Positions 13,437 through 57,237 of a stretch of 64,000 nucleotides of DNA are shown here, in pieces. The position numbers and the translations under genes are program-made. Position 1 is the stretch's first letter. Each line of letters starts with the position of its first letter. This stretch comes from an uncultured Acidimicrobiales bacterium (GTDB lineage: Bacteria; Actinomycetota; Acidimicrobiia; Acidimicrobiales; SZUA-35). The DNA lies in the NCBI GenBank assembly GCA_938002965.1, contig CALKZY010000016.1, positions 62,001 to 126,000 on the forward strand. The letters run 5' to 3'. The notes under the pieces are model-generated. The model did no database searches. It saw only the letters and a program-made list of their open reading frames with translations, and had not been told where the DNA came from.

Positions 13437-14639
13437 CTACTCGCTAGCCCCGGCGAGCTTGGCTTTCTTGGCCATGATCTTGAGAGAGAACGTCTCACCG
13501 CGGCCCTTTTCACTCCATGGGCACACACCAATGCAGATTCCGCAACCGTGGTTCTCGACGAAATAGGGAATGCAGGTGTCGAAGTCGACATACCAACGTT
13601 CTCGGCCGCGGACCATCTGTTTCGTGTCAAAAATCGCGTGCGGGGGACAGTTGGTAGTGCAGGCCTGGCATCGCGCACAAAATTCATCGACGCCGATGTC
13701 TTCGGGGGCGTCCAGCACGAGTGGGAGGTTTGTGGCCACTGCGCCGAGTCGATACATCGACCCGAGGTCCTTCGAAATCATCGACCCGTGCTTGCCGAGC
13801 TGGCCAAGCCCAGCTTCGACCGCAGCTGGGATTTGCAAGAAGCCGTGGATGGCAGCTTGGGCGTCCCAACCCATATCGCGGATGTGCTGAGCTAGCTCAG
13901 CCGAAATCCGATCGGTGCCCCGGTACTCGGCTTGGATTGTGAGTGCAGACCTCTCGCTTGGTGCATGCAGCGAGGCTTCTCGATCCATCTCGACGCCGAA
14001 GCTGATGATGTACGGATGCTCGGCCTGACTGAGGGGAAGTGACTCGGTCAACATGTCATCGGTGAGCGGAGCTATGCCGACCATGCAGGCGCCCAACTTC
14101 TCGGTGAGCGCCTTGATTTGAGCTGTCATCGCTGCTGGGTCATCACCGGGAATCTTCTCGGCAGCTTTCTCGCCGGTGAAGCGTCGGGTGTTCCACTGTC
14201 GCTTGAGAAGGGCGATCCATTCCCCTCTGGTCCGAATTCCCTGGAACAGGAATTCGAGTTTGCCCATTGGGTGCCCGAACTGCCACGTGTGAAAGATGGG
14301 GCTGGCTGGCCGTGGCTCGGTTTCGCCAAGTCCGTTGATGACGTTCCCTGACACCGGTGGATTATTGACCGTAAAGGCGTAGTCGATCGAGGGGTAAGCC
14401 TGGAGCTTCATGAAGTGTGATTTGCGATCGACCCCTGGCTTGGGCGAGAAGTCGGCAGCCTCCTGCCCTGGCTCTGGGGCGGGGATTGGCGGACCGAAGT
14501 CGTCGAGAACAATCTTTCGTCCGGTTCGCCGAGCGGTAAGAAACTCCTTCCGCAGCTCCCGACCGGTGGTCCAGTGCCGCTTCGACGAGGTCAGAAGCTG
14601 GCGGATTCCACCGATATCTTGTCTCAGCCGTTCACGCAT
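13437..14639 (-). CDS. Reductive-dehalogenase-like / QueG-superfamily cobalamin and 4Fe-4S protein
   Basis: A 400-residue protein with two C-terminal 4Fe-4S motifs: FCARCQACTTNCP (C321, C324, C327, C331) and a split set C356...C366-x2-C369-x3-CP, in the form TCIPYFVENHGCGICIGVCP. The distal Cys followed by GCxxCxxxCPW is characteristic of reductive dehalogenase (RdhA)-type proteins, and the LGQLGKHGSMISKDLGSMYRLGAVATNLPL stretch is shared with the RdhA/QueG cobalamin fold. There is no Tat signal and no RdhB membrane anchor, so it would be cytoplasmic and non-respiratory. ATG 14639 is chosen for its GGAGAGG ribosome site. It follows the AhpD-like gene by 26 bases. Reductive dehalogenation or another B12 reduction of an aromatic substrate is inferred. 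Confidence 0.75.
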   Translation of the reverse strand: MRERLRQDIGGIRQLLTSSKRHWTTGRELRKEFLTARRTGRKIVLDDFGPPIPAPEPGQEAADFSPKPGVDRKSHFMKLQAYPSIDYAFTVNNPPVSGNVINGLGETEPRPASPIFHTWQFGHPMGKLEFLFQGIRTRGEWIALLKRQWNTRRFTGEKAAEKIPGDDPAAMTAQIKALTEKLGACMVGIAPLTDDMLTESLPLSQAEHPYIISFGVEMDREASLHAPSERSALTIQAEYRGTDRISAELAQHIRDMGWDAQAAIHGFLQIPAAVEAGLGQLGKHGSMISKDLGSMYRLGAVATNLPLVLDAPEDIGVDEFCARCQACTTNCPPHAIFDTKQMVRGRERWYVDFDTCIPYFVENHGCGICIGVCPWSEKGRGETFSLKIMAKKAKLAGASE

Positions 14640-14665
14640 GATTGCCTCTCCGGGCCAGCTCCTAG

Positions 14666-15661
14666 TCACCCACGCAGGTGCTCGGGAATGGTTACCTTCA
14701 GCTCATCGGCGATGTCGTAGTAACGCTTGTTGACCGGCACCCCGACAGCATCAACAACCCGGTTTGTGCCTTCGAAGCCCGCGCAAACGGCAGCTGCCCG
14801 AGTGACCGCACCGGGACCTGCTGCGTCGTGCAGCTGTTGGCGGGCGATGGGCAGTTCATCGAAGTCCATCAGCACGATGGCGTCGACGAACGCGACAAGT
14901 TGAGGACCTAACGGAACGAGTGGGCCGAGGGCTGAATTAGTGATGGCGAGGATATCGACTGGCAGGTTGTTGGCGTTGGAGTTCTCACGGAGCATCCAGG
15001 CATGGCCGAACAGTCAAAAGAAGCACTCGTTGAGGTAGGAGGTTCTGGACGCAACCAGCTCCATTTGGCCTCGAGTCAGTTCTCGCCCAGGGTCGGCATC
15101 GTATTTGTGAACGTACTCGTCGGTCAGGTACCACTCTTTCGAGACGGCATCCTTGATTGCCTTCTCATTGGGAAGGGCGTTCAGGGCAGTGGGAGCCAAG
15201 GCAATACCCACGGTTGGGACCCAGGCATTAGAGGTGGCCGCCTCGTGGTTGTTGGCAGGTGTCGGATCACCTGGGATCGGCTCCGGTAGCGGGTCGAGGG
15301 CTGCGCCGAGGCCTACTCGGTAGGAGTCGATCGAGCTGATCTGGGCCACGACGGCCACAAGCTCGACAAAGGCCAAGACATCGTGTCCCGCCTCAGTCCA
15401 CGCCGTGACATGCTCGGGTCGGCTGTCCTTGGCATCGACGGCCACTCGCCGGACGGCGTCGGCCACAACCGGTGAGAGATCTGAGGAGCTGGAAGAGTCG
15501 ACGTTGAAGCCACGGCACACGCGGGCATAACGGGCAAGGGCTATCCGTTCTGCACCGGTGTAGAACGAACCGGGGGTTGCAATGTGGCGGAGGGCATCGG
15601 CGATGGCTGCATCGGCAGCGGGGTCGGGTGCGGCGAGTGACGCCGGGTCGGCCGTTGACAT
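14666..15661 (-). CDS. AhpD-like (CMD-family) peroxidase-related protein with in-frame TGA at the active-site cysteine: candidate selenoprotein
   Basis: One continuous frame interrupted only by TGA at 15014-15016. Upstream are 215 codons from ATG 15661 (AGGA eight bases before); downstream the same frame stays coding to 14666, including FEGTNRVVDAVGVP, typical of the AhpD/CMD C-terminus. Around the TGA the protein reads E-x11-C-F-F-(TGA)-L-F-G-H, which reproduces the AhpD catalytic pattern E-x11-C-x2-C-x3-H with the TGA exactly at the second Cys (position 216). Reading TGA as selenocysteine gives a 331-residue protein. AhpD-like selenoproteins with CxxU are known from metagenome surveys. The alternative is a nonsense mutation of TGC/TGT. 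It is the first gene of an operon with the RdhA-like protein. Confidence 0.75.
14981..15011 (-). promoter_or_regulatory. Candidate bacterial SECIS hairpin downstream of the TGA
   Basis: Read on the minus strand, the bases just after the TGA can fold: CGG (15008-15006) with CCG (14990-14988), CAT (15004-15002) with ATG (14995-14993), closing a GCCUGG loop. An optional outer GUU/AAC pairing (15011-15009 with 14983-14981) extends it. The loop begins 12 bases after the TGA and contains a GG pair about 17 bases away, near the usual bacterial spacing. Folding was done by eye. Confidence 0.4.
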
Positions 15662-15775: not shown

Positions 15776-17083
15776 ATGAGCGCTTCGTCTCGTCAGATGC
15801 ACCTCAACGCGTTCGTGTTGTACTGCCCGGCACCGGTAACACGCCTCAGCTGGGTGTATCCCAAAGACAAAGTCCGCCATCAGTGGTGGGAGATGGGGTA
15901 TTGGGAAGAGATCGCAACCACCCTCGAACGAGGCTCGTTTGACGCTCTCTTCTTTGCCGACAACATGGGCGGCTACGGAAGTGACGCCGACTCGATCAAA
16001 TTCGGCATGCACTTCCCGCTGCTCGACCCGGCGATGTTGGTGCCGAGACTTGCTGCCAAGACGGAGTATCTAGGTTTTGTGGTGACGATGTCGACCACGT
16101 TCGTGGCGCCGTATCACCTTGCTCGCTCGATGCAGACCTTGGACCATGTGACCGAGGGTCGGATTGGGTGGAACATCGTCACCTCGACCAACCCGCACGA
16201 AGGCGACAACCTCGACATCGAGCTGCCAGCCCACGACGAACGATACGAGCGAGCACACGAATACATGGAGGTCGTGTACGCACTGTGGGACTCCTTTGAG
16301 CCCGACGCCATGGTGATGGATCACGACAACCGGATCATGACCAACCCTGACAAAGTGCACCGCATCGACTTTAAGGGAAAGTGGCACGCCAGTGCCGGTC
16401 CCCTCAGCGTCATGCCAGGTCCGCAAGGTAGGCCGGTGCTCGCCCAGGCGGGTGCGTCCGAAGCAGGAGTTTCGTTTGCGGCCAAGCATGCCGAGATGGT
16501 CTTCGCCCCAGCTGGCAGCGATCAACAGCGTCGGGAGATGGTGGCCGATCTGCGCACCCGGGCGTCGGATCAGGGGCGCAACCCCTATGACCTCAAAATT
16601 ATGTTTACTCATGGGCCGATCGTCGCTGACTCGACTGCGGAAGCCGCCGCGCTCCAAGAAGAAATTCTGGGCCGACCTGGGTATGACGCAGACATAGCAG
16701 CGCTTCGGCCCCCGGCCGGTTTTGATCTCAGTGACCTAGATCCGCAGACGCAGCTGTCGGAGATTCTGCCTCGAGTCACAGGTATGCGAGGGCCGTTTGA
16801 AAAGGCAGTCGAGGACGATGACCCCACGCTCGCTGAGTTTGCTAGTCGGTTCCGCAACCTCGCTGCAGATAGCCGGTTTGTCGGAACGCCGTCCGATGTG
16901 GCCGACGAGTTCGAGGCGCTGCAAGATGCCACCGATTGTGACGGGTTTCAGTTCGCGCCGACCTACTATCCACCCGATTGCTACGCCACGATTGTCGACC
17001 ATCTCGTCCCCGAACTGCAGCGACGGGGGCGCGTGCGCCGCGGCTACACCGGCCCGACCTTGCGGGAGAACCTACTCGGCTAG
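15776..17083 (+). CDS. LLM-class flavin-dependent monooxygenase, NtaA/SnaA/DszA family
   Basis: A 435-residue luciferase-like TIM-barrel monooxygenase. The NtaA/DszA branch is recognisable by MHLNAFVLYCP near the N-terminus, FDALFFADNMG, LAAKTEYLGFVVTMSTTFVAPYHLARSMQTLDHVTEGRIGWNIVTS and VLAQAGASEAGVSFAAKHAE. Such enzymes use reduced FMN from a partner reductase to oxidise organosulfur, chelating or aromatic compounds. AAAGGA precedes ATG 15776. It is divergent from the AhpD-like/RdhA-like operon. No dedicated flavin reductase is adjacent; the PNPOx-like gene downstream on the other strand is only a possible flavin-handling partner. Confidence 0.9.
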   Translation: MSASSRQMHLNAFVLYCPAPVTRLSWVYPKDKVRHQWWEMGYWEEIATTLERGSFDALFFADNMGGYGSDADSIKFGMHFPLLDPAMLVPRLAAKTEYLGFVVTMSTTFVAPYHLARSMQTLDHVTEGRIGWNIVTSTNPHEGDNLDIELPAHDERYERAHEYMEVVYALWDSFEPDAMVMDHDNRIMTNPDKVHRIDFKGKWHASAGPLSVMPGPQGRPVLAQAGASEAGVSFAAKHAEMVFAPAGSDQQRREMVADLRTRASDQGRNPYDLKIMFTHGPIVADSTAEAAALQEEILGRPGYDADIAALRPPAGFDLSDLDPQTQLSEILPRVTGMRGPFEKAVEDDDPTLAEFASRFRNLAADSRFVGTPSDVADEFEALQDATDCDGFQFAPTYYPPDCYATIVDHLVPELQRRGRVRRGYTGPTLRENLLG

Positions 17084-56649: not shown

Positions 56650-57237
56650 CTATGCGTGTCTGCCAATCTCCCAGCCTTTGTCAGCCAGTCGCGGCTCGGT
56701 GACAGCAATGGCATCGGGCTCCAGGGTTGTGGCCAGCGAGTCATTCCAGCGGTTGAACACACCGAACATGCAAACTACTCCGAGGATCTCTACGATCTGA
56801 TCTTCATCCCAATGGTCTGCGAGATTTTGGTAGATCTCGTCGGTGACAGCGTTGGGCACAGCGCCTGAGGCCAAGGCAAAGTCAAGGGCCGCTCGCTCTG
56901 CTTCGGAAAACAGCGGACTGGTGTTGAAGTCATAGACCGCAGTCATCATTTCATCATCAATACCATGACGCGTTGCGCTAACGGTTGTGTGGGCTTTGCA
57001 ATACTGACATCCGGCTGCGGCGCTGGCCATATGTCCAACGAGACGCTTCAGTCCGAGGTCGACCTTGCTGTTCGGTCCGAACACCGCCTTAAAGGCCACC
57101 GTGGCCTTGGCGATGGCCGGAACACGCTGCATGGTGAGCAAGCTTGCCGGAACCATGCCTAACGTTCCCATGAAGTGGTCGAAGATGACGTTGAACGTCT
57201 GTCGCTGGTTGACGATCGGGTATCGCCTCCTAATCAA
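56650..57237 (-). CDS. CMD/AhpD-family protein with CxxC
   Basis: A 195-residue carboxymuconolactone-decarboxylase-family protein of the peroxidase-like kind: AAAGCQYCKAHTTVSATRHGIDDEMM carries CxxC followed by His, and LFSEAERAALDFALASGAVPNAVTDEIYQNLADHWDEDQIVEILGVVCMFGVFNRWNDSL is the conserved C-terminal helix set. A thiol-dependent antioxidant or lactone role is possible. It is convergent with the P450 (six-base gap) and divergent from the dikinase-like gene, with two palindromes between. Confidence 0.87.
   Translation of the reverse strand: MIRRRYPIVNQRQTFNVIFDHFMGTLGMVPASLLTMQRVPAIAKATVAFKAVFGPNSKVDLGLKRLVGHMASAAAGCQYCKAHTTVSATRHGIDDEMMTAVYDFNTSPLFSEAERAALDFALASGAVPNAVTDEIYQNLADHWDEDQIVEILGVVCMFGVFNRWNDSLATTLEPDAIAVTEPRLADKGWEIGRHA

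Follow-up and report, generated by a model that had tools for sequence, protein, structure and literature searches.

The window analysed here is a stretch of 64,000 nucleotides from an uncultured Acidimicrobiales bacterium. It carries, on the minus strand, a gene for an AhpD-related protein whose reading frame is interrupted by one internal TGA (Table 1). The original prediction had described a single frame with this one interruption and 115 further codons behind it, and re-reading of the sequence confirmed this description. The frame comprises 331 codons plus a TGA terminator, and the internal TGA is codon 216, preceded by 215 codons. Automatic ORF calling ends the gene at the internal TGA, so genes of this type are easily missed. 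Read through, the active site is E201-x11-C213-F-F-U216-L-F-G-H220, which agrees with the predicted spacing of Glu, Cys, TGA and His. According to the available part of PMC3141380, the relay of Mycobacterium tuberculosis AhpD consists of Glu118, Cys130, His132, Cys133, and His137, and both this enzyme and PA0269 share with the window protein the spacing E-x11-C-x2-C/U-x3-H. Because the spacing is the same, the internal TGA corresponds to the second catalytic cysteine.

Table 1. Positions of the selenogene, its elements and adjoining genes in the window, and of the second TGA-containing gene in related loci
Feature	Position	Strand	Remarks
AhpD-related selenoprotein gene (selenogene)	14666..15661	-	NF041238, CFFU motif, 331 aa; ATG 15661, TGA terminator 14668-14666
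In-frame TGA, predicted to be read as selenocysteine (Sec216)	15014..15016	-	Aligned with the second Cys in the CxxC of AhpD
SECIS-like hairpin region UGGAUGCUC-CGU-GAGAACUCCA	14977..14998	-	Loop begins 24 nt after UGA, G at loop position 2; weak here, with a C.A mismatch
Reductive-dehalogenase-like gene, 4Fe-4S motifs	13437..14669	-	Downstream of selenogene; ORF start GTG 14669, orthologues suggest ATG 14639
NtaA/DmoA-family FMN-dependent monooxygenase gene	15776..17083	+	Divergent from selenogene; also adjoins it in L020 and L022
Second AhpD-like gene with in-frame TGA, SxxU	L020:3329-3901, L021:6997-7569, L022:3232-3804, L025:468-1040

The selenogene belongs to an already known selenoprotein family, NF041238 (AhpD_rel_CFYUT), an NCBIfam equivalog of alkylhydroperoxidase-related (seleno)proteins. 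Its product scores 217.3 bits against a cut-off of 175 over residues 17-320, and 202.6 bits in a six-frame search of the genome. As in the family, CxxU stands at the same place, and the length of 331 residues compares with 357 model positions. In the part of PMC13188914 that is available, the family is listed as the Sargasso Sea selenoprotein "hypothetical protein 1", which, according to the accessible text of PMC1088965, was first described in 2005 and named without a function. Unlike the CFYUT of the family name, the motif of the window protein is CFFUL. The motif also varies among other family matches, being CFFU in loci L028, L031, and L032, CRFU in L054, and CVYU in L029. In a family tree of 36 rows, from which L027 (the window itself as found in the genome), L056, and the fragments L025 and L026 were left out, the window and five of its close relatives form a subclade separate from the other members, with a long stem of 1.08 changes per column and support of 100/100.

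The AhpD-like identity proposed earlier stands as far as the active-site spacing is concerned, but the protein is a member of this longer family and not a generic AhpD. Judged by profile scores, it is only a distant relative of AhpD (the TIGR00778/PF02627 core), since both models remain below their cut-offs (16.9 versus 27.8 bits and 17.5 versus 23 bits, respectively). Residues 194-315 align with the AhpD-like structure PDB 6k40 (E 9e-5), whereas the approximately 190 N-terminal residues, unlike AhpD, have no Pfam match above cut-off. The protein further differs from AhpD in having selenocysteine (Sec) for the second Cys and, directly before it, Phe for the relay residue that is His in AhpD and Tyr in PA0269. 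The idea that this Phe is tolerated only together with Sec was rejected. In 40 hand-picked short AhpD-like matches from the class-wide NF041238 search, Phe occurred in 3 of the 20 forms without TGA (CEFC, CNFC, and CTFC) and in none of the 20 with TGA. A CxxU motif in an AhpD-type active site is also reported, in the accessible part of PMC2398784, for the ocean-metagenome selenoproteins AhpD-like 1 and 2 (COG2128/PF02627); the original prediction had also mentioned such proteins from marine metagenomes. By the corresponding models the window protein is not a member of these groups, as its scores lie below the cut-offs of TIGR01926 (33 versus 81.8 bits) and Pfam CMD (17.5 versus 23 bits).

A single scan of genome contigs gave 24 pattern-matching stretches, and from these came seven relatives of the selenogene (L020 to L026), all from Acidimicrobiales and 66-90% identical to it. 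All seven have TGA at the same codon, so the stops at random positions that would have spoken for a decaying gene were not found. A class-wide protein search gave matches in 56 of 296 genomes. Among its best 30 loci, comprising the window and 29 others, C-x-x-TGA is present in every one of the 29, and the weaker matches include stop-free frames, mostly short and AhpD-like. The NF041238 cut-off is passed in 45 of the 296 genomes of the class, of which 44 have one in-frame TGA and one, G247, has Cys (CFYC). The place of the TGA was read in all 44 genomes (29 plus 15), and it was C-x-x-TGA every time; His follows four residues past the TGA in 15 of the 15 additional family genes. In the aligned column, Sec thus occurs in 44 genomes and Cys in a single one. 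L027, the window itself, is left out of the family counts. In a phylum-wide sample of 396 genomes the cut-off is passed in four, all from the class of the window. In the tree, the only Cys form falls among Sec forms (support 97/89), which fits a reversal from Sec to Cys, although it sits on a long branch whose placement is flagged as unsure. Two other stop codons that had been counted were discarded: a TGA at G000:C14:95634-96011 in the host assembly is the terminator of its own gene, and a TAG at 56650-57048 of the window is the end of an AhpD-like frame with CQYC.

The region behind the TGA evolves as a translated sequence would be expected to. In the 15 pairs formed by the window and five full-length relatives, dN/dS (NG86) ranges over 0.04-0.24 downstream of the TGA, compared with 0.04-0.25 upstream. 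Synonymous sites close to the TGA are nearly frozen. At codons of invariant residues in the six full-length close sequences, the synonymous difference is 0.14 over 14 codons lying at -6 to +10 of the TGA, compared with 0.53 over 156 others, and none of 20,000 permutations within degeneracy classes gave a value as low. This block was picked after the synonymous variation had been inspected; in a scan of 174 windows, the six with the lowest synonymous difference all have their first codon in the range from -7 to +8 relative to the TGA. With the TGA shared by 7 of 7 relatives and C-x-x-TGA by 44 of 45 class genomes over the family cut-off, together with selection downstream and frozen flanking sites, it is exceedingly improbable that the TGA is a nonsense mutation or a sequencing error in a decaying gene, as the window copy alone, with its unremarkable local RNA fold, would permit; the original prediction had likewise regarded a random nonsense mutation at this codon as a chance event.

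The host assembly (G000; 4.69 Mb in 57 contigs, 91% complete, 6% contamination) contains the complete set of decoding genes that had been predicted. A selB gene on contig C7 scores 253.7 bits, summed over pieces in frame, against a cut-off of 242.25, and selA adjoins it. The selD gene on contig C17 (L019, 47905-48840) has an in-frame TGA of its own in the context GAGUACK, so the selenophosphate synthetase itself looks like a selenoprotein. A tRNA-Sec with anticodon TCA was found on another contig, C57, at its end; this position, in an assembly with 6% contamination, weighs against the Sec reading. The expectation that such machinery is uncommon does not hold at the level of the class, as Sec decoding is common in Acidimicrobiia, with selA over cut-off in 200 of 296 genomes. 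SelA and SelB are also described, in the accessible part of PMC5649159, from most sponge-symbiont bins of various phyla. A selA match at E <= 1e-99 is present in 43 of the 44 TGA-form genomes, compared with selA over cut-off in 157 of the other 252 genomes (Fisher p = 3e-7, kinship ignored). The remaining TGA-form genome, G234 (90% complete), has no selA match among those listed, and the Cys-form genome G247 also has selA.

These data bear on a reading of the TGA as another amino acid, such as Trp, through near-cognate decoding or a reassigned code. The selenogene is itself terminated by TGA, and the codon is consequently not globally reassigned in the host. Moreover, the sole exchange in the column is Cys, tRNA-Sec and SelB are present, and selA co-occurs with the TGA form, which leaves insertion of another amino acid very improbable. 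The selenogene very probably encodes a selenocysteine-containing AhpD-related oxidoreductase of NF041238. Comparison shows its TGA to be kept as the predicted Sec codon, with selection acting on the protein beyond it and with the decoding set present in the host.

Selenocysteine insertion would be aided by a hairpin just downstream of the UGA. In the window copy this hairpin is weak and has a C.A mismatch within the stem of the family that is also present in L020, L021, L022, and L025. Single-sequence folding of 50 nt of the window gives no signal (z = +0.24), and the short hairpin is no better than synonymous shuffles, of which 717 out of 1000 equal or exceed its stability. The wider family was compared in a set of 38 sequences, namely 8 close ones, 29 distant ones, and a second copy from the host genome itself, with L073 (the Cys form of G247) left out. 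The 26th base after the UGA, which is loop position 2, is G in 38 of 38 sequences and in 15 of 15 further family genes. In the 30 sequences that are not close, the four stem pairs of GCUC/GAGC form in 30, 30, 30, and 29 cases. The corresponding stem score is 3.97, compared with 1.63 +/- 0.23 in synonymous shuffles, of which none of 500 was as high, and a seven-pair comparison gives 178 cells for the true register versus 56-104 for slid registers. The 8 close sequences reach a stem score of 3.38 versus 2.17 +/- 0.32, again with 0 of 500 shuffles as high. Their folding energy, however, is matched or undercut by 81 of 500 shuffles and thus not significant, and shifting the register by -2 gives pairing as good as that of the true one (39 versus 36 cells). 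When hairpins are scanned for freely in the 38 sequences, 26 have their best loop at +24, 10 have it at another place, and 2 have no qualifying loop. On this comparative evidence, a SECIS-like hairpin is conserved in the wider family; it is clear in the 30 members that are not close and weak in the window copy.

The second NF041238 gene of the host genome (L074, G000:C38:16699-17826) has the motif C-F-Y-TGA, and its hairpin contains a compensated stem pair, U-A for C-G. Three other frames of CMD/AhpD type in this genome have C-x-x-TGA: L081 (C13:173015-173200) with CPTU, L082 (C3:64782-64988) with CMWU, where the usual x3-His is missing, and L083 (C30:68019-68153) with CHYU. The host genome may hold five AhpD-type selenoproteins. 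In genus g66 of family f29, with genomes of about 1 Mb, a short AhpD-like frame with one TGA is often present; in the examples L118 and L120, the TGA lies at C-E-Y-TGA. An AlphaFold model of the selenoprotein computed from the 8 close sequences was unusable (mean pLDDT 41).

The surroundings of the selenogene in the window are catabolic in character, with genes for ring-cleavage dioxygenases and a carbon-nitrogen hydrolase among others. The reductive-dehalogenase-like frame downstream of it encodes 410 residues. It scores 112 bits against the TIGR02486 cut-off of 160, so its product is not a member by that model. The product matches PDB 4ras (NpRdhA) as well as 6zxu and PceA (4uqu). In the alignment, Tyr249 and Arg307 of the product fall opposite the catalytic residues Tyr246 and Arg305 of PceA. 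Tyr249 is kept in all six compared sequences and Arg307 in the five that reach this position. Proteins of this kind are rare, occurring at E <= 1e-30 in 3 of 296 class genomes, that of the window included. Such a gene lies near the selenogene in six of the seven relatives, downstream in L020 (where the contig ends within it), L021, L022, and L025, and upstream in L023 and L024. In L026, whose contig begins inside the selenogene, there is none in the 6 kb downstream. Each of the seven relatives has another AhpD-like gene, which starts 9-29 nt past the stop codon of the selenogene; in the window genome this second gene lies approximately 21 kb away, at C16:54774-55346. The cassette with these two genes distinguishes the window clade from other NF041238 members. 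Among 18 loci of distant members, examined with a simple gene caller, no neighbour cluster occurred in more than 5, and the neighbourhood is thus uninformative for the family as a whole. No report of an AhpD selenoprotein paired with a reductive dehalogenase was found in the accessible parts of the literature. What looks new is the setting, that is, a second AhpD-like gene and a dehalogenase-like gene beside a member of a known family.

The second AhpD-like gene has its own in-frame TGA in L020, L021, L022, and L025. Since L020 and L025 come from one metagenome-assembled genome (MAG), these four copies represent three genomes. The TGA falls exactly at the second Cys of a CTHC motif, and the first Cys is replaced by Ser, giving GSLH-U-QSH or SSTH-U-QSH. 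The gene has CTHC in L023, L024, L026, and the copy of the window genome, and the 12 more distant genes that were read all have CxxC, which on the simplest view makes Sec the derived state. Past the TGA, dN/dS among the four copies is 0.02-0.11, and selA is over cut-off in all six host genomes checked (L020 to L024, and L026). Common to the four TGA copies is GCGTTCA-GTT-TGAACGC, which forms a perfect 7-bp hairpin with a loop that begins with G 19 nt after the UGA. It is absent from all four CTHC copies, even though L024 encodes the same amino acids there, and it is identical in L020 and L021 despite a dS of approximately 1.2. More stable alternative folds are available to longer stretches in L021 and L025. 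Of the usage-weighted synonymous codings, about 4% would yield this 7-bp stem, which makes the hairpin supportive but not decisive. It looks to have been made by synonymous codons and to be new in the TGA copies. The best NCBIfam match of this gene is NF053654 (GroundWater_YciW, YciW-related (seleno)protein); unlike members of that family, it scores only 43-51 bits against a cut-off of 310 and has SxxU or CxxC. SxxU is described for a mercuric transport protein (C/SxxU) and a peroxiredoxin (T/SxxU/C), and no report of an SxxU AhpD-like protein was found, in the portions of the literature that were accessible. Taken together, the sequences indicate that the second gene of these four relatives (three MAGs) is probably a second, recently evolved selenoprotein.

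By analogy with AhpD, a reaction scheme can be proposed for the product of the selenogene. SelB and tRNA-Sec would decode the UGA, placing Sec216 where M. tuberculosis AhpD has its second catalytic cysteine, Cys133, with Cys213 corresponding to the first, Cys130, and with Glu201 and His220 as putative proton-relay residues. Sec216 would attack and Cys213 resolve. In its catalytic cycle the protein would most likely form a Sec-Cys selenenylsulfide as it reduces a peroxide or hands reducing power to a partner.

Whether the gene setting has a bearing on this function can be judged in two ways. Chances are about even that the Sec enzyme is unrelated to its dehalogenase-like neighbour, being a general peroxide or thiol defence protein in a chance position. 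The varied surroundings of distant NF041238 members are in line with such a role, as is the occurrence of the dehalogenase-like protein in 3 genomes versus 45 with the selenoprotein. This is opposed by the dehalogenase-like gene lying near the selenogene, on either side, in the window and six of seven relatives, and by the second AhpD-like gene directly after it in all seven. The conserved second AhpD-like and reductive-dehalogenase-like neighbours, located among aromatic-degradation genes, tentatively point to a redox relay in catabolism and not to general stress defence, although this is the least secure step of the interpretation and less likely than not. Speculatively, the products of all three genes might act as partners. 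Lacking the first Cys of its own motif, the SxxU protein would need a thiol from elsewhere, and the neighbouring CFFU protein is a candidate donor. A more specific and rather doubtful proposal is that, in a clade of uncultured Acidimicrobiales, the adjacent CFFU and SxxU selenoproteins form a dedicated selenium relay for aromatic degradation, serving the dehalogenase-like enzyme, which by homology is of cobalamin/Fe-S type. On this view, the SxxU protein would have changed from Cys to Sec recently, with Ser replacing the first Cys and the SECIS element arising through synonymous changes, and the window genome would represent the state with a Cys-type second protein some 21 kb away. The part of this proposal that concerns the second selenoprotein is itself probable and much better supported than the link to dehalogenation.

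For the family, which had been named without a function in 2005 (PMC1088965, in its accessible part), the window clade provides a conserved gene setting, and no earlier report of one was found in the available literature. The second gene of the relatives catches an apparent change from Cys to Sec. As close CxxC orthologues are at hand, the order of its steps, namely the gain of the Sec codon, the loss of the first Cys, and the birth of the SECIS element, is directly testable.
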